Below, in pieces: positions 44,645 to 55,158 of a stretch of 64,000 nt of DNA (its first letter is position 1; each line of letters opens with the position of its first letter). Made by a program: the position numbers and the translations under genes. The notes under the pieces were generated by a model. The model ran no database searches, was not told where the DNA came from, and saw only the letters and a program-made list of their open reading frames with translations. The stretch comes from Bdellovibrio bacteriovorus. GTDB taxonomy: Bacteria; Bdellovibrionota; Bdellovibrionia; Bdellovibrionales; Bdellovibrionaceae. The stretch lies in contig NZ_LUKF01000001.1 in NCBI RefSeq assembly GCF_001592755.1, positions 222,774 through 286,773 on the forward strand. The letters run 5' to 3'.

Positions 44645-45922
44645 TTAGAACCAAGCTTCAAACTGGTAACCAAAACTTGTTCCGGCCGTTTTATCTCTAA
44701 AGGCCGAATTTGCTCCGCCAATGATTTCCTTATTCGAGTTCGACCACATAGAGTGACTGACGAAAGCTCTCATTACCGGGCGCCCCCAGATCGTTTTACT
44801 GAAAGACAACTGCGGAGCTAACGACACACGACTCAACTCGCGCGCTCCCACGGGATTTCCGCCTCCATCCACTTCTGATTCGTCTTTGAAGCGAGAATAA
44901 CCTGTTTCAAAAACCCATTGAAAGCGATCCGAGACAAAATAAATCGGACGAATACCGATCTCTTGCCATTCACGGTGATTGTTTTCATCATTTCCGTTGT
45001 CACCGATTTCAGCCGCAAAGCCGAACATCACCGCCCAGCGATCGGTTACATCGTGATTCCAATCTTCCACTAAACGCAACGTCCAGGCTTTGTTCTGACT
45101 GTCGTCTGTTGAAGGAACGGCACTGCTTGCGTAGATATTTAAATCTTTCATCGCGCCTTTACCGTATAAGATTGTCGTATTGTTATTTCCATCAAGCACA
45201 GAACCATTCAAGCGCGCTGAAATCGAATATCCATTCGTATCGATGTACGATGTTGTTCCATCAGAACTTGCTTGGGCCCAAGCGTAAACGCCCCACAAAT
45301 TTAAATTTTGTTCGGCAAAAACGGGAATCGTTTTCCAACGAAGATCCACCGCTTGCAACACGGGACGACCTGCCGTGGTTGCGGAAAGATCATCATTTGC
45401 TTGAATCAAATGCGCGATCGCAAATTTTCCACCGGCATCGACAGGAATATTATCAATCCCCGCTCCAACACCGCTCATATCCGCATAGTAGTACCAGTCA
45501 AAAATGTACAAATCGACGTCACGGTAAAAGCGTTTTCCAACCCAGAATTCTCCAGGAATATCGGTAAATCCACCCGCCGTAACGAAGGCTTCGATTTGAC
45601 TCATGTCCCTATTTGCCGCAGCTTCCCACTGACGTGTCCCTTTGGAATTGAACATCAAACGGACCTGCGTTCTAAAAAATACCGAGTCTTGTTCCTCAGG
45701 TTTTTTATGGTGGAACACCATCGCAAGTTCCGAATAGAAACCGCACTCATTACCTAAACGTAGGAAATTACCAGGGATTCCGGAATTGAAAAAACAATCT
45801 TGTTTTCCACCTTCGAAATTCACTCCCGTTCCGCCACGTAAGTAGCCAATAAAATCCGCGTTCATGGCAAAGCTCACGGACGATGACAACATACAAATTA
45901 CGAACCACTTAATACTTTTCAC
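44645..45922 (-). CDS. Maltoporin-like (LamB family) outer membrane porin
   Basis: 425 aa from GTG 45922 (MKSIKWFVICMLSSSVSFA), with AAGAGGTG upstream; longer frame from 45955 lacks a signal peptide start. Mature N-terminus NADFIGYLRGGTGVNFEGG is the typical first strand of LamB, FRLGNE-like RLGNECGFYSEL and EFWVGKRFYRDVDLYIFDWYY follow, and the C-terminus ends in Phe (YQFEAWF) as outer membrane proteins do. Lets maltodextrins cross the outer membrane. Divergent from the maltodextrin operon starting at 46017. Confidence 0.93.
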   Translation of the reverse strand: MKSIKWFVICMLSSSVSFAMNADFIGYLRGGTGVNFEGGKQDCFFNSGIPGNFLRLGNECGFYSELAMVFHHKKPEEQDSVFFRTQVRLMFNSKGTRQWEAAANRDMSQIEAFVTAGGFTDIPGEFWVGKRFYRDVDLYIFDWYYYADMSGVGAGIDNIPVDAGGKFAIAHLIQANDDLSATTAGRPVLQAVDLRWKTIPVFAEQNLNLWGVYAWAQASSDGTTSYIDTNGYSISARLNGSVLDGNNNTTILYGKGAMKDLNIYASSAVPSTDDSQNKAWTLRLVEDWNHDVTDRWAVMFGFAAEIGDNGNDENNHREWQEIGIRPIYFVSDRFQWVFETGYSRFKDESEVDGGGNPVGARELSRVSLAPQLSFSKTIWGRPVMRAFVSHSMWSNSNKEIIGGANSAFRDKTAGTSFGYQFEAWF

Positions 45923-45959
45923 CCTCACCTCTTGAAAAAGCTGAGGCTTACCCATAAAG

Positions 45960-46016: not shown

Positions 46017-48668
46017 TTGCGCAAAAAGTCTTGGAGTTTTCTATGCTTAGTTTTCTTCTATTGCTTACCTGCAATCGCTGGCGACGCACGTGCCAAGTGG
46101 ATTGATGCCACTCAATTGAAGCTCAAACTTCCTCCAGGTTTTTATGTCAGTGCAAGCACACAATTCTATTTCGTCGATGGCTCTTTGCCGTTAGCACAGA
46201 ACACTCCCATCAACCTTCCGGTTATTTCCGTACAAGGTGCCTATGCGTGGCTTAGTACGGCTCACATAAAAAAATCGAATATCGACTCTTTGATTCGTAA
46301 GCCTTTGAAGGTCGTGATCACTGCCAACAACCGAACACTTTTAGATTCTACAAGTGTGCAATACGCAGGACTTTTAGATTCTTCTTACTTCTATGAAGGC
46401 GATGATTTAGGAGCTAACTGCGAGTCTCACTGTGACGTGAAACTTTGGGCCCCGACGGCTCAGAACGTGCGATTGCATCTTTTCCGCACGAGCACTGATG
46501 AAGTCCCCGCCGCGATTTTAGAGGGAGACCGCCTTGATCAAGGTGTGTGGCATTTTCCTCTTTCTCGCAGTTACGAAAATTATTTCTACCTTTACGAAGT
46601 GACGAGCTTTCAGCCTTTGACGAATAAGATCGAGACTTATTTAGTCACTGATCCTTACAGCAAATCTCTTTCGATCAACGGTGAAAAGTCTCAACTCGTC
46701 AGCTTGACTTCGTCGAATACGACTCCGCAAGGCTGGGAGTCTTTGCAAAAGCCAGCGCTGAACTCTTTGAATGATTCAATCATTTATGAACTTCACCTTA
46801 GAGATTTCAGCGCCAATGAAAACAGCATCCCCCCGGATTATCGCGGAACATATTTGGCATTCACTTTCGAGCGTGCTTCTGGTGTTCAACATCTGAAGGA
46901 CCTCGCAGATGCAGGTTTAACCCACGTTCATCTTCTACCGTTCAATGATTTTGGCAGCGTGAATGAAAGAAAAAGCGAGTGGGACAACTATCAAGGTCCA
47001 AGCTCAAACTTGCAAGAGCCCCAAAGCCTTATCGGCGGCATGAGAACTTCCGATCCCTTCAACTGGGGTTATGATCCTGTTCATTACCTGACTCCTGAAG
47101 GCAGTTATGCAGTGGATGCGGATGGCGCTTCCCGCGTAAAAGAAGTTCGTGAAATGGTCGCCGCTATCAACAATATCGGTTTGCGCGTTGTTCAAGACGT
47201 CGTTTTGAACCACACCTATCAAGGGGGCGCAGAACCCTATTCTGTCTTCGATAAAATCGTGCCACTTTATTACTATCGCGTCGATGAAGAGGGTCGCACT
47301 TTCAAGAGCTCTTGTTGCAACGACACAGCCAGTGAACATCGCATGATGGAAAAGCTGATGATTGATAGTGTTCTTCACTGGGCGCGCACTTATAAACTCG
47401 ATGGCTTCCGTTTTGATTTAATGTCTTTCCATTCGCGTGGCACTATGGCTCGCATTCGCGATGCGGTTCGTGGCTTGACTCTGCAAAACGATGGCGTCGA
47501 TGGATCTAAGATTCTTCTTTACGGTGAAGGCTGGAGTTTTGGCTCTTTCTTCGACTCAAATCCCAAAGAAGCCATGACGATTGAAAACTCCTACGGCACG
47601 GAGTATGGCTTCTTCAACGATCGCCTGCGTGACGCCGTCCGTGGTGGAACAACTTCAGCCGCTGAAAAATCCGATCAAGGTTTTGCGACCGGTCTTTACT
47701 TCGACTTTAACGAAGAGCCCGCAAATCGCAACACACCGATCTACTTAGAAGATCAAAGAGGCAAACTTCTTCATTTAGGCGATGTGATCAAAGTAGGGCT
47801 TGCGGGAAATATTGCTGAATTTGAATTTAAAGAACACTTGGGCCATACGATTCGCGCTAATGATTTAAAATTCCGTGGCGCCCCGGTCGCCTTTGCGAAC
47901 GAAGCTTTGGAAACTATTAACTATGTTTCCGCGCATGATGGTTATGGATTGTGGGATGCGGTTCAGGCTAAAGCTCCATTTAACAACTACAATCGCACCC
48001 CTTCTATTGCGAGCAGCGAAGAACGTCGTCGCATGCACCAGTTGGCACTATCTATTCCTATGTTAGGCCAGGGTTTACCTTTCATTGAATCCGGCACCGA
48101 GTTGCTACGTTCTAAAAATGGCGACCAAGACAGTTATGATTCGGGCGACTTCTTCAATCGCATTGATTGGAAAGGCACGACAAACTATTGGGGTGCAGGA
48201 CTTCCTCCAGCATGGAAGAATTTAAACGACTGGGCCTTCTGGCAACCACGTCTGATGGCACCAGAAATGAAAGTTTCAGCGGCTCAAATTCAAAGAACAA
48301 AAGAATATTTCAAAGGTCTTTTGCGAGTTCGTCAAAGCAGTCCGTTATTTAAATTAAATACTTCTGAAGCCATTGCTCAGCACTTAAGTTTCATCGATAA
48401 CGAAACATCTGCAGAGCCAGGGCTGATCGCGATGCTTTTGAAAAACGATAGCGAAGCTTTATTGGTCCTTTTCAATGCTTCTCGCGAAGCGCGCACATTT
48501 TCGAATGCAAAACTTCGTTATAACTGGAAACTTCATCCGTTGTTTGATGAAGCAGTCGATCCACTTTTGTCTCAAGTTGTTTTACAACCTTCACAAAGAC
48601 TGGTGCAAATTCCTGGTCGCACGACGGTGATTCTTCAACTCTTGAATAATGCTAATCGGAATTATTAA
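46017..48668 (+). CDS. Secreted type I pullulanase
   Basis: 883 aa from TTG 46017, GAGGGGG 5 nt upstream. Signal peptide MRKKSWSFLCLVFFYCLPAIA. Beta-rich N-terminal modules to about 240, including a CBM48-like stretch (VKLWAPTAQNVRLHLF). GH13 barrel with YELHLRDFSANE, FNWGYDPVHYLTPEGSYA (pullulanase signature), VVLNHTY, GFRFDLMSFH (nucleophile Asp), LYGEGWSFG (acid Glu) and YVSAHDGYGLWDA (Asp). Hydrolyses alpha-1,6 branches in glycogen or limit dextrins. First gene of the operon with the transporter immediately downstream, sharing one base. Confidence 0.94.
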   Translation: MRKKSWSFLCLVFFYCLPAIAGDARAKWIDATQLKLKLPPGFYVSASTQFYFVDGSLPLAQNTPINLPVISVQGAYAWLSTAHIKKSNIDSLIRKPLKVVITANNRTLLDSTSVQYAGLLDSSYFYEGDDLGANCESHCDVKLWAPTAQNVRLHLFRTSTDEVPAAILEGDRLDQGVWHFPLSRSYENYFYLYEVTSFQPLTNKIETYLVTDPYSKSLSINGEKSQLVSLTSSNTTPQGWESLQKPALNSLNDSIIYELHLRDFSANENSIPPDYRGTYLAFTFERASGVQHLKDLADAGLTHVHLLPFNDFGSVNERKSEWDNYQGPSSNLQEPQSLIGGMRTSDPFNWGYDPVHYLTPEGSYAVDADGASRVKEVREMVAAINNIGLRVVQDVVLNHTYQGGAEPYSVFDKIVPLYYYRVDEEGRTFKSSCCNDTASEHRMMEKLMIDSVLHWARTYKLDGFRFDLMSFHSRGTMARIRDAVRGLTLQNDGVDGSKILLYGEGWSFGSFFDSNPKEAMTIENSYGTEYGFFNDRLRDAVRGGTTSAAEKSDQGFATGLYFDFNEEPANRNTPIYLEDQRGKLLHLGDVIKVGLAGNIAEFEFKEHLGHTIRANDLKFRGAPVAFANEALETINYVSAHDGYGLWDAVQAKAPFNNYNRTPSIASSEERRRMHQLALSIPMLGQGLPFIESGTELLRSKNGDQDSYDSGDFFNRIDWKGTTNYWGAGLPPAWKNLNDWAFWQPRLMAPEMKVSAAQIQRTKEYFKGLLRVRQSSPLFKLNTSEAIAQHLSFIDNETSAEPGLIAMLLKNDSEALLVLFNASREARTFSNAKLRYNWKLHPLFDEAVDPLLSQVVLQPSQRLVQIPGRTTVILQLLNNANRNY

Positions 48669-50875
48669 TGAAGTTTGGTAAGTTCGCATTTCTTTGTCTT
48701 TTATTCTTATGCTCTTTCGCCGAGGCCGCAAAACCTTTGCGTGTTCAGCTTTGGCATCAAATGATCTATGGCCACCGCGTGGTCTTATCAGATGCCTTAA
48801 GAGAATTCGAAAAAGAACACCCCGGTATCGTCGTTCAAGAAACTTATCGAGAAACTGAAGAGTTGCGTTCTAGCTATCAAGCAGCCGCCATGGGCGGTTC
48901 GGGTCCAGAACTCGTGTTCGGGCCCAGCGATCAGATCGGGCCTTTTGCGACGATGAATATCATCCGTCCTTTGGATGAAGTTCTTGAACCTGATTACTTC
49001 AAACAATTTGATCCTTTGGCTATTCCCGTTTACCGCGACAAACATTATATGATTGGTGGCGCCGTCGGTAATCATCTGATGCTCATCTATAATAAGAAAT
49101 TAATTTCTAAGCCTCCGCAAAATTCCGATGAATTGATTGCGATTGGTAAAGAGCACACTAAGGACTTAAACGGAGACGGAAAAATCGACCGCTATGGTTT
49201 GGTTTTTAACTACACGGAACCCTTCTTCTTTGCGCCGTTTATCCCTGCCTTCGGCGAAGCCTTCATGACAGACGACGCAAAGCCCAACTTAAACACGCCG
49301 GCTTTGCGCAAGACCTTTGAATTCATTCTGCAACTTCGCGACAAGTACAAGATCATTCCTAAGGAGTGTGACTACGAAACGGCCAATGCTCTGTTTAAAC
49401 AAGGCAAAGCCGCTATGCTCATCAACGGTGATTGGTCTTGGGGCGATTACAAAGACGCCGGAATGGATTTCGGAATCGCTCGCATCCCGATGATTTCTGA
49501 GACTAAAAAGTGGCCAAGTCCTTTGGTGGGAACAGCCGGCTATTCTTTGAACGTCAATATGCAAACTCCGGAACATGAAGAGGCCGCGCTCAAACTTTTG
49601 CGCTACCTGACCTCAGAACGAGTGCAATTGATGTTCATGGAGCGTGTGGGTGTCCTGCCATCAAACTTAAGTCTTCGTGACAATCCTGTCGTCAAAAACA
49701 ATCCCCTGCTTGAAGTGTCTTCAGAAATCATGGAAGTAGGAACTCCCATGCCTGTGGTTCCTGAAATTCGTGGCGTGTGGGACAGTTTACGTATCCAGTA
49801 CCAAAAACTTTTGGCGAACTCATTGATTCCAGACCAGGCAGCGGAAGGCGCACAAAAACTTGCAGAAGCGCAAATCACGGACATGAACGAGATCCTGCAG
49901 CAGGATGCTTCTGCGTTTGTTATTAAAGCGATCATCGTTATTCTTGTACTAGCTCTTGCCTGGATGTCGCGTAAATCTTTTGTTGGATTCTTTCAAGGGT
50001 TCAAAGGCCCGCAAAGATTCGTGTACTACATGATGCTTCCGGCGTTCGTGGGAATTTTTGCCGTTATTATCTATCCGTTTTTCTATAATATCGCGATTTC
50101 CTTTTCGAACTTCAGTCTTCGCACCTTCCAAGATTGGTCGATCGTGGGCCTTCAACACTACGTCAGTGCGTTGAGCGATCCTAAGTTCTATTCTTTGTTC
50201 TTAAAGACAATTATCTGGACGGTCGTGAATGTCTTCTTCCATGTTACGATTGGTGTTTTCTTAGCAGTTATCATCAATCAAGTAATGCCTGCTAAAGGCT
50301 TCTGGAGAACGCTGTTCATTATTCCTTGGGCGGTGCCTCAATACATCACAGCTCTTACGTGGCGCGGGATGTTCAATCAAGAGTACGGACCCATCAATCA
50401 GTTCCTGCAACAGTTCTTGCATCTGTCTCCAGTGCAGTGGTTGAGTCAGCCTTTCACGGCCTTCACGGCGTGTATTATAACGAATGTGTGGTTGGGTTTC
50501 CCATTCATGATGATCGTCGCACTCGGAGGATTGCAGTCCATTCCGCACTCTCTTTATGAAGCCGCTTATTTAGATAAAGCCAATGCATGGCAAAGATTCC
50601 GTCATATCACTTTGCCGCTTCTGATGCCGGTGATGGTTCCAGCGGCCCTTTTAGGCTCTATCTGGACATTTAATAATTTGAACATCGTTTGGCTTGTCAG
50701 CAATGCCGGCGAACCAGGTGATCAAACTCACATTTTAGTAAGTTACGTTTATAAAGCGGCATTTAACTTGTATCGCTACGGATATGCAGCGGCCGTTTCT
50801 GTTCTTATTTTCTTAATTCTTGCTGTATGGAGCTTGGGCTCTTTAGTTGGCCAATACAGAAAGGAGACCAAGTGA
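48668..50875 (+). CDS. Fused maltodextrin-binding protein and MalF-type permease
   Basis: 735 aa. Signal peptide MKFGKFAFLCLLFLCSFAEA; residues ~22-405 are a family 1 sugar-binding protein (LRVQLWHQMIYGHRVVLSDALREFE ... KQGKAAMLINGDWSWGDY). A single hydrophobic segment (~415-433, VIKAIIVILVLALAWMS) is followed by a positive stretch (RKSFVGFFQGFKGPQR), which puts the following six-segment permease in the MalF orientation. EAA loop EAAYLDKANAWQRFRHITLPLL near 630. One uninterrupted frame, no stop or internal start is needed. Overlaps both neighbours, so no separate binding-protein gene exists in this operon. The domain order is SBP, anchor, permease. Confidence 0.93.
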   Translation: MKFGKFAFLCLLFLCSFAEAAKPLRVQLWHQMIYGHRVVLSDALREFEKEHPGIVVQETYRETEELRSSYQAAAMGGSGPELVFGPSDQIGPFATMNIIRPLDEVLEPDYFKQFDPLAIPVYRDKHYMIGGAVGNHLMLIYNKKLISKPPQNSDELIAIGKEHTKDLNGDGKIDRYGLVFNYTEPFFFAPFIPAFGEAFMTDDAKPNLNTPALRKTFEFILQLRDKYKIIPKECDYETANALFKQGKAAMLINGDWSWGDYKDAGMDFGIARIPMISETKKWPSPLVGTAGYSLNVNMQTPEHEEAALKLLRYLTSERVQLMFMERVGVLPSNLSLRDNPVVKNNPLLEVSSEIMEVGTPMPVVPEIRGVWDSLRIQYQKLLANSLIPDQAAEGAQKLAEAQITDMNEILQQDASAFVIKAIIVILVLALAWMSRKSFVGFFQGFKGPQRFVYYMMLPAFVGIFAVIIYPFFYNIAISFSNFSLRTFQDWSIVGLQHYVSALSDPKFYSLFLKTIIWTVVNVFFHVTIGVFLAVIINQVMPAKGFWRTLFIIPWAVPQYITALTWRGMFNQEYGPINQFLQQFLHLSPVQWLSQPFTAFTACIITNVWLGFPFMMIVALGGLQSIPHSLYEAAYLDKANAWQRFRHITLPLLMPVMVPAALLGSIWTFNNLNIVWLVSNAGEPGDQTHILVSYVYKAAFNLYRYGYAAAVSVLIFLILAVWSLGSLVGQYRKETK

Positions 50876-51690
50876 TTAAAAAAACTTTGGCTTGGTTTAG
50901 CATTCTTATTTTTGCGGTGTTTTCGGTCTATCCGATCCTTTACGTACTTTCCGTTTCTTTACGTGGCGACAATGCTTTCCAATCACAATCTTTGGAAATC
51001 ATCACATCGACTTCCACGCTGAAAAACTTTGTGGATCTTTTCACGAAAACAGATTTCTTGCTCTGGATGCGCAATTCTTTGCTAGTGGCGACGATGACGA
51101 CTCTTTTGGGCGTGGCCTTCGCTTCAACCAGCGCCTATGCTCTTTCGCGCTATCGCTTCCGCGGTCGCAACATGATGCTCTTTTCGCTGCTGGCGACCCA
51201 AATGTTCCCGGCGACCATGCTTATTCTTCCTTTTTACATCATTCTTTCAAAATTGCGTTTGATCGATAGCTTTTGGGGACTTTTCCTTATCTATTCCTCG
51301 ACGGCTCTTCCTTTCTGCGTGTGGCAGATGAAGGCTTACTACGACACGATTCCTAAAGAGCTTGAAGAAGCGGCCTTGCTCGACGGTTGTTCGCGCTGGA
51401 TGACTTTTTATAAAATCATTCTGCCTGTCTCTTCGCCGGCTTTAGTGATCACAGCTCTATTTAGTTTTTTAAGCAGTTGGAGTGAATACGTGATTGCGGC
51501 CGTGGTCCTGCAAGATCCACATCTTTATACACTGCCATTGGGGCTTCGCTCTTTCCAAGCGAGCATGGCGACACAGTGGGGTCTTTATGCGGCAGGAGCT
51601 TTGATCGTCAGCGTTCCAGTTTTGATTTTGTTCATTAGTATCTCCCGCTATTTGGTTTCTGGTTTAACTATGGGTAGCGTGAAGGGTTGA
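50872..51690 (+). CDS. malG: MalG-type maltodextrin ABC permease
   Basis: 272 aa from GTG 50872, overlapping the stop of the fusion gene; AAGGAG 5 nt upstream. Six hydrophobic segments. EAA loop ELEEAALLDGCSRWMTFYKIILPV contacts the ATPase. ARYRFRGRN-like SRYRFRGRNMMLF and NSLLVATMTTLLGVAFASTSAYALSRY are CUT1 family features. Forms the channel together with the permease half of the fusion protein. Confidence 0.94.
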   Translation: MIKKTLAWFSILIFAVFSVYPILYVLSVSLRGDNAFQSQSLEIITSTSTLKNFVDLFTKTDFLLWMRNSLLVATMTTLLGVAFASTSAYALSRYRFRGRNMMLFSLLATQMFPATMLILPFYIILSKLRLIDSFWGLFLIYSSTALPFCVWQMKAYYDTIPKELEEAALLDGCSRWMTFYKIILPVSSPALVITALFSFLSSWSEYVIAAVVLQDPHLYTLPLGLRSFQASMATQWGLYAAGALIVSVPVLILFISISRYLVSGLTMGSVKG

Positions 51691-51692
51691 TT

Positions 51693-52733
51693 ATGGCATC
51701 TATTGAATTTTCTAAAGCCTCTAAAAGCTTTGGTGCTTCACAAATTCTAAAAAACATTGATCTTGAAATCACCAGCGGTGAATTCTTGGTTCTTGTCGGT
51801 CCTTCCGGTTGCGGAAAGTCCACTTTGCTAAGAACGCTTGCCGGTCTTGAAAAGTTAGATGGCGGCGACATCAAGGTGAGCGGAAAATCTATTGCCAAGC
51901 GCGAACCTCAAGATCGTGACATCGCCATGGTATTTCAAAACTACGCGCTTTATCCGCACATGAATGTCGCAGAAAACATGGGCTTTGCTTTAAAACTGCA
52001 AAAAAAATCCAAAGACGAAATCAGCAAGCGCGTGCACCAGATCGCTGAACTTCTGCAAATCTCTCATTTACTGGATCGCAAACCTAAAGAACTTTCCGGT
52101 GGTCAACGTCAGCGCGTGGCTTTGGGCCGTGCTTTGGCTCGCCAAACATCGATCGTTCTTTTTGACGAACCTCTTTCAAACTTGGATGCCCATTTGCGCA
52201 GTCAAATGCGTGTTGAGATCAAACGCCTTCACCAAAGCTTGAAATCCACGATGATTTACGTCACCCATGACCAGATGGAAGCAACAACTATGGGCGACCG
52301 TATCGCCGTTCTAAAAGACGGGATCGTGGAACAAGTTGGAACTCCTACGCAAATTTATCACCAGCCTAAAAATCTTTTCATCGCCGGGTTTATTGGTTCT
52401 CCGGAAATGAACTTTATTGAAGGTTCTTTGTTGAAAAAACTTCCTTGGAAAGAAGTCCAAGACGGCGACATTTTAGGTGTGCGCCCTGAGGCCTTTAAAA
52501 TTTCCAACGGGAACTTGGAAAGCAATGAATTAGAGCTGGGAAGCTACCAAATCGAGCTTTCTGAAAATTTGGGAGGCCAACAGATGCTTCATGGCTCTTT
52601 AGAGGGCCAAAGTGTCAGAATTCTTGTGGATTCTTCTTATAATTTTTCTAAAGATGAAAAGGTTCGTTTAAAGATCGACCTGACAAAGTCCCACCTCTTT
52701 GATAAAAAAACGGGACTGAATAAGCGACTTTAA
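51693..52733 (+). CDS. malK: MalK/UgpC-type sugar ABC ATPase
   Basis: 346 aa from ATG 51693 (MASIEFSKASKSFGASQIL), three bases after malG. Walker A GPSGCGKST, Q loop MVFQNYALYPHMNV, signature LSGGQRQRVALGRAL, Walker B VLFDEPLSNLD, H loop VTHDQMEA. C-terminal ~110 residues form the OB-type regulatory domain (IAGFIGSPEMNFIEG, LGVRPEAF). Energises uptake. In other bacteria this domain also answers to inducer exclusion. Confidence 0.95.
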   Translation: MASIEFSKASKSFGASQILKNIDLEITSGEFLVLVGPSGCGKSTLLRTLAGLEKLDGGDIKVSGKSIAKREPQDRDIAMVFQNYALYPHMNVAENMGFALKLQKKSKDEISKRVHQIAELLQISHLLDRKPKELSGGQRQRVALGRALARQTSIVLFDEPLSNLDAHLRSQMRVEIKRLHQSLKSTMIYVTHDQMEATTMGDRIAVLKDGIVEQVGTPTQIYHQPKNLFIAGFIGSPEMNFIEGSLLKKLPWKEVQDGDILGVRPEAFKISNGNLESNELELGSYQIELSENLGGQQMLHGSLEGQSVRILVDSSYNFSKDEKVRLKIDLTKSHLFDKKTGLNKRL

Positions 52734-52742
52734 GGAGACTGC

Positions 52743-54191
52743 ATGTCTTTGAGCCTTTGGGCACGCCTTCTTTGTTTTGCCATCTTTGTGACAAGCCTGC
52801 AGGTGCATGCAGCTCCGCGCACTGTCTTTGTACAACTGTTTGAGTGGTCTTGGGCTGATGTCGCCAATGAATGCGAAAATTACCTGGGGCCCGCTGGTTT
52901 TTCTGCGGTTCAGGTATCTCCTCCCCACGAACACATCATGTGGGAAAACACTCCTTGGTGGGAACGCTATCAAGTTGCAAGCTATAATTTAAATTCTCGT
53001 AGTGGCAATGAGGCTGAATTTGCCGACATGGTTCGTCGCTGTCAGTCTGTCGGGGTCGATGTGTATGCCGATGCTGTGATTAATCACACCACGGGTATTC
53101 CCGGAGGCGTTGGTTTTGGCGGAACGGCGTTCACTCACTACGATTATCCCGGTCTTTATTCGCACAAAGATTTTCACCACTGTGGTCGTAACGGCAATGA
53201 CAACATCGTTGATTATTCAGACCGCTACGAAATTCAAAACTGTGAACTTGTCGACCTTGCAGATCTCGCAACAGAAACAGAATATGTACGAGATCGTCTA
53301 GCGGCTTATTTGAATAAACTTTTGGATTTGGGTGTTGCCGGTTTTCGTATCGATGCTGCCAAACATATTCCAGCTCAAGATCTTGCGGCGATTTACTCGC
53401 GCCTAAAGCGTTCTGCTTATATTTATCACGAAGTCATCTACGATCCCAAAGGCCCTATCCAATACAGCGAGTATCTTCCCTATGGCGACGTGATGGCCTA
53501 TGACTATCCTCGCGCACTGGCAGGTGGGTTGCGCTTTAAAGATGCCGAACGTCTTCACCGTATTGCCGAAGGTTTTCCTGACAGCAAAGACTCTATTGTC
53601 TTTGCAACCAATCACGATCTTGAACGTCACGATGCTAGTTCGGTATTAAGTTACAACGGCACTGAGCAGCGCTTGTACCGTTTGGCTCAGGTTTTCATGT
53701 TGGCGTGGCCCTATGGCTATCCACAACTCTTCTCGGGATTTAAATTTGATAACTTTGATCAAGGTCCTCCCCTGACTTCAGAAATGAAATCCCAGCCCGT
53801 ATTTGATCAGAATGGCAAATGCGTGGCCCCTTGGACTTGTGAACATCGTTTACCTGAAGTCGCCGCGATGGTGGATTTTAGAAACCAAACGGACAAGGCA
53901 TTTTATATTTCTAATTGGTGGTCTAACGGCAAAGACCAATTGTCTTTCAGTCGTGGCAGTTTCGGCTTTGTAGCTATGAATTATTCTGATTCACAGATGC
54001 AACGCGATTTTGCGACGTCACTGACCCCAGGCACTTACTGCAATATAGTAAGCTCGGACTACAATCCGCGCACAAAAACTTGCACTGATTCTTGGACGGT
54101 GACGAATCGTGGATATGTTCATGCGACGATTCCGGCGATGTCTGCTGTCGTACTTTTAAAAACTTCTCCATTTAAAACTAGAAAAAAGTAA
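52743..54191 (+). CDS. Secreted alpha-amylase, GH13 animal-type
   Basis: 482 aa. Signal peptide MSLSLWARLLCFAIFVTSLQVHA. FEWSWADVANECENYLGPAGFSAVQVSPP, RYQVASYNLNSRSGNEAEFADMVRRC and VYADAVINHTTG resemble animal and actinobacterial amylases (GH13_24/32). GFRIDAAKH (nucleophile Asp), YHEVIYD (Glu) and FATNHDLERH (Asp) are the catalytic residues. Hydrolyses alpha-1,4 bonds outside the cell or in the periplasm. Last secreted enzyme of the operon. Confidence 0.94.
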   Translation: MSLSLWARLLCFAIFVTSLQVHAAPRTVFVQLFEWSWADVANECENYLGPAGFSAVQVSPPHEHIMWENTPWWERYQVASYNLNSRSGNEAEFADMVRRCQSVGVDVYADAVINHTTGIPGGVGFGGTAFTHYDYPGLYSHKDFHHCGRNGNDNIVDYSDRYEIQNCELVDLADLATETEYVRDRLAAYLNKLLDLGVAGFRIDAAKHIPAQDLAAIYSRLKRSAYIYHEVIYDPKGPIQYSEYLPYGDVMAYDYPRALAGGLRFKDAERLHRIAEGFPDSKDSIVFATNHDLERHDASSVLSYNGTEQRLYRLAQVFMLAWPYGYPQLFSGFKFDNFDQGPPLTSEMKSQPVFDQNGKCVAPWTCEHRLPEVAAMVDFRNQTDKAFYISNWWSNGKDQLSFSRGSFGFVAMNYSDSQMQRDFATSLTPGTYCNIVSSDYNPRTKTCTDSWTVTNRGYVHATIPAMSAVVLLKTSPFKTRKK

Positions 54192-54195
54192 ATCC

Positions 54196-55158
54196 ATGAA
54201 AAAGACATACACTATCGGCTTTGATCTTGGCGGTACTAAATTAGCAGCAGCCCTTTTAGATAATAGTGGCACGATGCTGGATTTTATTAAAGTACCTGTG
54301 GATATGAAACGTGAAAAGTCGGCGTTACAAACTCAAAAGCGTGTGATCAATCTGATGGCAGATATCGCGATGGATTTTAAAAAACGTTTTCCGAAAGAAA
54401 CAACCGGAAAGCATTTTTTAGGTATCGGATTAGCAAGTGCCGGCCCCCTCAATGCGGAAGAAGGAAAACTGATTCACCCGATGAATTATCCAGGCTGGAA
54501 GATCGTTCCTATCCGGGATCTGGTTGCGAAAGAAATCAATGCTCGTGGTTTTAAGACAAAAGTGCATTTCCAACACGACGGCACAGCCGCGGCGTTAGCG
54601 GAAGGTTGGGTTGGTGGCGGTAAAGGCATGCGCTCTTATGCGGTCGTCACCGTGGGTACGGGTGTGGGATCAGGTGTGATTTTCAATGGCTTCCCCGCAC
54701 AAAGCCGCGGCATGGGTTCTGAATACGGTCACACCATTGTTGATTTCAAAAAACTTCAAGAGTCTCCGGATAAACTTCATCACTGCACAGTAGAAGGTGT
54801 CGCTTCAGGTACCGGACTTCTTCGTCGCGCGAAAGAACTTGGCTTCACCGGGAACTCGGTTGAAGAACTTGTAGAATCCAAAGACGCCAAATACCAAGTG
54901 CTGTTCAAAGAGATGGGCTGGGCGCTGGCTTGTCTGTGCTATGACCTATCGATTGGGTATAACCTGGAAAGAATTTTCTTAAGCGGTGGCCTGATTAAGA
55001 TTAAAGGTCTTTATTTCAATGATCTAAAATCTCACTACAAAAAAATGATTCAACAAATGAATCCTATGTTTGAGTGCAAGATTGAAATTGCGAAAACTAA
55101 AAACCACGCCGGAGTTCTAGGCGCGGGTTATCTTCCTTATCTAGCTCTTAAGAAATAA
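54196..55158 (+). CDS. ROK-family glucokinase
   Basis: 320 aa. IGFDLGGTKLAAAL phosphate 1 motif, HFQHDGTAAALAEGWVGGGKG with catalytic Asp, and VTVGTGVGSGVIF phosphate 2. The usual ROK zinc motif (C-x-C-G-x-x-G-C-x-E) is absent: the equivalent stretch reads HHCTVEGVASGTGL with one Cys. Phosphorylates glucose released by amylase and maltodextrin breakdown, closing the pathway. Four bases behind the amylase gene, so last in the operon. Confidence 0.88.
   Translation: MKKTYTIGFDLGGTKLAAALLDNSGTMLDFIKVPVDMKREKSALQTQKRVINLMADIAMDFKKRFPKETTGKHFLGIGLASAGPLNAEEGKLIHPMNYPGWKIVPIRDLVAKEINARGFKTKVHFQHDGTAAALAEGWVGGGKGMRSYAVVTVGTGVGSGVIFNGFPAQSRGMGSEYGHTIVDFKKLQESPDKLHHCTVEGVASGTGLLRRAKELGFTGNSVEELVESKDAKYQVLFKEMGWALACLCYDLSIGYNLERIFLSGGLIKIKGLYFNDLKSHYKKMIQQMNPMFECKIEIAKTKNHAGVLGAGYLPYLALKK

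Follow-up and report, generated by a model that had tools for sequence, protein, structure and literature searches.

Free and tethered receptors in ABC importers

In the family of importers to which the maltose transporters belong, the permeases MalF and MalG form a heterodimer. The Escherichia coli system MalE/MalFGK2 relies on a free MalE receptor and on an eight-helix MalF, whose P2 loop of approximately 180 residues contacts MalE. A different design is seen in OpuA and GlnPQ, where receptor and permease are joined via a short linker and an anchor helix; the OpuA linker is 11 residues long (PMC11065425). The fused permeases of these importers form homodimers, and each complex carries at least two receptors.

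The closest described system comes from Bdellovibrio bacteriovorus. Licht et al. (2019, Res Microbiol 170:1-12), represented here by its title and by its citations in PMC7756565 and PMC9045158, concerns a maltodextrin transporter in which a single MalE domain is fused to MalF. In addition, the maltose/maltodextrin-binding domain MalE of B. bacteriovorus has been crystallized with bound maltotriose (6ffl, as titled in the Foldseek output).

The malEF locus

The DNA analyzed here is a stretch of 64,000 nucleotides, referred to as the window. An unbroken frame of 735 codons runs from ATG to stop at positions 48668-50875 (plus strand) in the ORF listing, and its product, with a calculated mass of 83.4 kDa, joins a maltodextrin-binding domain, an anchor helix, and a MalF permease in one chain of 735 amino acids. 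With a probability of roughly 0.95, this frame, called malEF below, encodes the subunit that combines receptor and permease in a CUT1 importer for maltose/maltodextrin, an ortholog of the characterized B. bacteriovorus transporter.

The genes on either side fit such a role. A LamB maltoporin (44645-45955, minus strand) is recognized by profile match, as is a pullulanase-type alpha-1,6-glucosidase (46017-48668, plus strand), which is also in the ORF list. The partner permease MalG (50854-51690, plus strand; 278 amino acids from this start, with an alternative ATG upstream at 50827) and a MalK/UgpC-type ATPase (51687-52733, plus strand; 348 amino acids) lie in one operon with malEF, and the ATPase passes the NF008653 cut-off (436.9 versus 432 bits). 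Profile matches further identify an alpha-amylase (52743-54191, plus strand) and a ROK-family sugar kinase (54196-55158, plus strand), the latter a probable glucokinase. The order LamB-PulA-MalEF-MalG-MalK-amylase-ROK is conserved in several other Bdellovibrionota, while the loci of Fidelibacterota mostly retain MalEF-MalG, often together with MalK. At the junction of the pullulanase and malEF genes, the stop and start codons overlap by one base in the string TAATG (48660-48670), an arrangement that suggests translational coupling.

Domain architecture and membrane topology

Pfam places PF13416 (SBP_bac_8, 7e-37) on residues 44-349 and PF00528 (BPD_transp_1, 1e-16) on residues 526-721 of the same chain. 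The receptor half matches only PF13416 and PF01547 among Pfam families, and thus not the receptor families of GlnPQ or OpuA; the permease families of those importers likewise differ from that of MalEF. The hydropathy profile contains a signal peptide, a strong and isolated segment at 415-433, and permease segments from 451 onward. An AlphaFold2 model built from 30 aligned sequences (mean pLDDT 84.6, pTM 0.78) agrees with this partition.

The chain begins with a Sec-type signal peptide (48668-48730, plus strand; approximately residues 1-21), indicated by hydropathy and by a model helix at 2-15, with a predicted A-x-A cleavage site. The MalE-like domain follows (48737-49891, plus strand; residues 24-408) and closes in the model with a helix at 388-407. 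After a six-residue gap comes the anchor helix at 414-433, which together with the linker at 409-413 occupies 49892-49966 (plus strand) and is supported by hydropathy, alignment, and model. The loop between the anchor and the first permease helix (49967-50017, plus strand; residues 434-450) contains four lysine or arginine residues and no aspartate or glutamate. The MalF core (50018-50872, plus strand) has an EAA loop and six helices, modeled at 450-478, 505-539, 544-569, 595-623, 640-678, and 704-734. Because the N-terminus of the mature chain would be periplasmic, an odd number of helices is required, and the anchor supplies it; under this topology the EAA loop (624-645) and the C-terminus are predicted to lie on the cytoplasmic side. 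The preliminary description had read the same order of signal peptide, binding protein, anchor, and six-segment permease in a single frame, and had proposed that the anchor, with its positive-inside stretch, orients the permease. Pfam, hydropathy, and the AlphaFold2 model bear out the first point, and the helix at 414-433 and the charges of the 434-450 loop bear out the second.

The permease core belongs to the short type without a P2 loop rather than to the eight-helix type of E. coli, and it scores well below the cut-off of the E. coli MalF equivalog model NF008232 (178.5 versus 392 bits). Compared with E. coli MalE/MalFGK2, identity is approximately 22% for MalE and 34% for MalF; the two systems share the EAA loop and some of the sugar-site residues, whereas here MalE is tethered and the P2 loop is absent.

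The assembly, stoichiometry, and substrate that we infer for this copy are as follows. The signal peptide would direct the MalE domain to the periplasm, the single anchor helix would return the chain to the cytoplasm, and the six-helix MalF core could then insert in its normal orientation. MalEF, MalG, and two MalK subunits would form a complex with one permanently tethered receptor, as the preliminary description had also proposed, since a MalF-MalG heterodimer contains only one fused chain, in contrast to the homodimers of OpuA and GlnPQ; Licht et al. (2019) likewise name a single receptor per complex in their title. LamB, together with the alpha-glucan hydrolases encoded nearby, would supply the importer, and the ROK kinase would probably phosphorylate the glucose released.

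It is conceivable that the fused frame is genuine and that a free permease or receptor is nevertheless made as well, either from an internal start codon or through proteolysis of the linker. In-frame ATG codons are present at residues 406, 433, 455, and 456, and M406 is near-invariant across the MalEF family. None of the four is preceded by a recognizable Shine-Dalgarno sequence, but this is weak counter-evidence because the true start of malEF itself has only a weak one. Every member of the clade also keeps the anchor, a segment for which a cleaved product would have no use, and production of separate chains seems improbable.

Conservation and relation to the characterized transporter

Full-length fused matches without an internal stop were found in 17 of the 24 genomes of the genus, and further families within the order and the phylum have the fused protein too. 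When GTDB genomes were scanned, the fused chain was recovered from Bdellovibrionota, Fidelibacterota (Neomarinimicrobiota), Calditrichota, and unclassified bacteria, and the linker and anchor align with almost no gaps across the fused set. Among the seven genomes of the genus that do not carry a full-length MalEF (G005, G010, G017, G019, G020, G021, and G024), several are fragmented drafts and others are complete; some species of the genus seem to do without the system.

Residues 24-408 match 6ffl_A at 1.3e-199 in a phmmer search of the PDB, and Foldseek superimposes the model on it with a TM score of 0.98 at 75% identity. The 6ffl sequence agrees at 386 of 386 positions with the receptor half of a fused frame from the same genus (L023), which extends 327 residues further into MalF. 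Over the whole chain, malEF and this congener are approximately 77% identical. By these comparisons malEF can be taken as an ortholog of the crystallized domain. Domain order, anchor, and length are all like those of the B. bacteriovorus MalEF-MalG-MalK system, and the sole difference is that this is the copy of another species. The gene is thus a further copy of a published system, and fused MalEF is already known.

A sequencing or assembly error that merged two genes could in principle yield such a frame, particularly because malE and malF of the nearest split relatives are adjacent and sometimes lie only a few bases apart or overlap. Errors would not recreate an identical anchor helix each time, and the frame recurs intact in the 17 congeneric genomes as well as in several further phyla, with scarcely any gaps in the aligned linker; the donor of 6ffl is fused as well. 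This explanation has next to no credibility. The preliminary description was therefore right to reject a frameshift artefact, and its two-domain architecture, which it suggested seeking elsewhere, was found in other Bdellovibrionota, Fidelibacterota, and Calditrichota. Its statement that few tethered receptors are known in CUT1 importers, with the implication of a rare or new arrangement, is wrong for this lineage in view of the 6ffl structure and Licht et al. (2019).

A single tethered receptor provides a natural test of whether such an importer needs free binding protein in excess. The B. bacteriovorus ortholog has already been used to address this question, to which the copy described here adds little by itself. 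Licht and colleagues are said to have studied the B. bacteriovorus system and to have observed activity comparable to that of E. coli MalFGK2 when MalE is present in a 1:1 ratio.

The sugar site and the likely substrate

Binding and transport of maltose and maltodextrins by the malEF system are predicted by analogy with the maltotriose-bound 6ffl domain and from the neighboring genes. Among the sugar-site residues of E. coli MBP, alignment places D65, E153, W230, M330, W340, and R344 as conserved in the MalEF family, whereas three contacts are altered (W62 to G, R66 to Q, and E111 to N). Because these contacts are replaced, the exact substrate range of malEF may differ from that of the E. coli system. 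The same replacements could be taken to mean that the importer handles another oligosaccharide and that maltodextrin is taken up elsewhere. Against this stand the maltotriose bound by a domain 75% identical to that of malEF, the proximity of LamB and starch-degrading enzymes, and the fact that no second MalE-like receptor was identified in the genome. No free MalE was found among its four other SBP_bac_1/8-type proteins, of which three resemble PotD, PhnS, or ThiB and the fourth is a weak match without an assigned type (C20:205096, 28.6 bits). A role in importing some other sugar is thus very unlikely, and maltodextrin is the preferred substrate assignment.

Origin of the fusion

Separate malE and malF genes occur in relatives from Chlorobiota, Calditrichota, Eiseniibacteriota, Fermentibacterota, Gemmatimonadota, and KSB1. 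In these split relatives, the binding protein ceases to match the query at residue 405-408. The gene that follows encodes MalF, which matches from approximately residue 443-469 onward. The anchor helix is absent from them, and these boundaries indicate that it was added in the fused clade. In a tree of the MalF core, the 44 fused members cluster together (SH-aLRT 93), and split ones surround this group. As malE and malF are separate genes in the nearest relatives, the fused clade probably derives from one fusion event. The MalF of one split relative (L070) also has no P2 loop, and for this reason the P2-less form probably predates the fusion. Horizontal transfer of MalEF is likely, because Calditrichota hold both the fused and the split forms and Fidelibacterota include one split copy (L068).

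Other receptor-permease fusions among CUT1 importers

Five genomes from a different family within the phylum (L098-L101 and L113), and one further genome (L114), also encode chains of 725-755 amino acids with the order receptor, anchor, and permease. These fusions are only 25-29% identical to malEF. Those of the five genomes share its domain order and length but differ in the linker and do not form one clade with it. The AU test rejected one common origin for all of the CUT1 fusions (p 1.1e-5, or 8.8e-6 without L114), with p values that should be read in light of the long branches and the quick tree. At both loci checked (L113 and L100), a GH94 phosphorylase is among the neighbors, and the second fusion is therefore probably an importer of beta-glucan oligosaccharides.

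On balance, we consider it probable that receptor tethering evolved at least twice independently in CUT1 sugar importers. Both cases would be represented in Bdellovibrionota: the maltodextrin family, also present in Fidelibacterota and Calditrichota and transferred between phyla, and the GH94-linked family, which probably acts on beta-glucan oligosaccharides. While the malEF gene restates a published system, this probable repeated evolution of the tethered design is the more interesting part. How tethering evolves could be studied by comparison, using the split sister genes together with the second, unrelated fusion. A limited literature search returned no relevant paper on the second fusion or on other CUT1 fusions.

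Several additional sequences resemble these fusions. The frame at L113:4100-6277 (plus strand) is an example of the second, non-orthologous type. Plasmid matches from Cetobacterium (H1) and Nonomuraea (H3) appeared fused by tblastn and proved to be two separate genes each. An unclassified bacterium encodes a fused MalEF-like protein (L086:7932-10148, plus strand) that is 32% identical and has its own proline-rich linker; it is possibly an independent fusion, although its placement in one clade with the main MalEF family is not rejected by the tree test (p 0.52). The divergent fused CUT1 protein at L114:6024-8249 (plus strand; 755 amino acids) has MalG- and MalK-like neighbors, and its genome (G238) also carries a free MalE and a P2-type MalF (L102).
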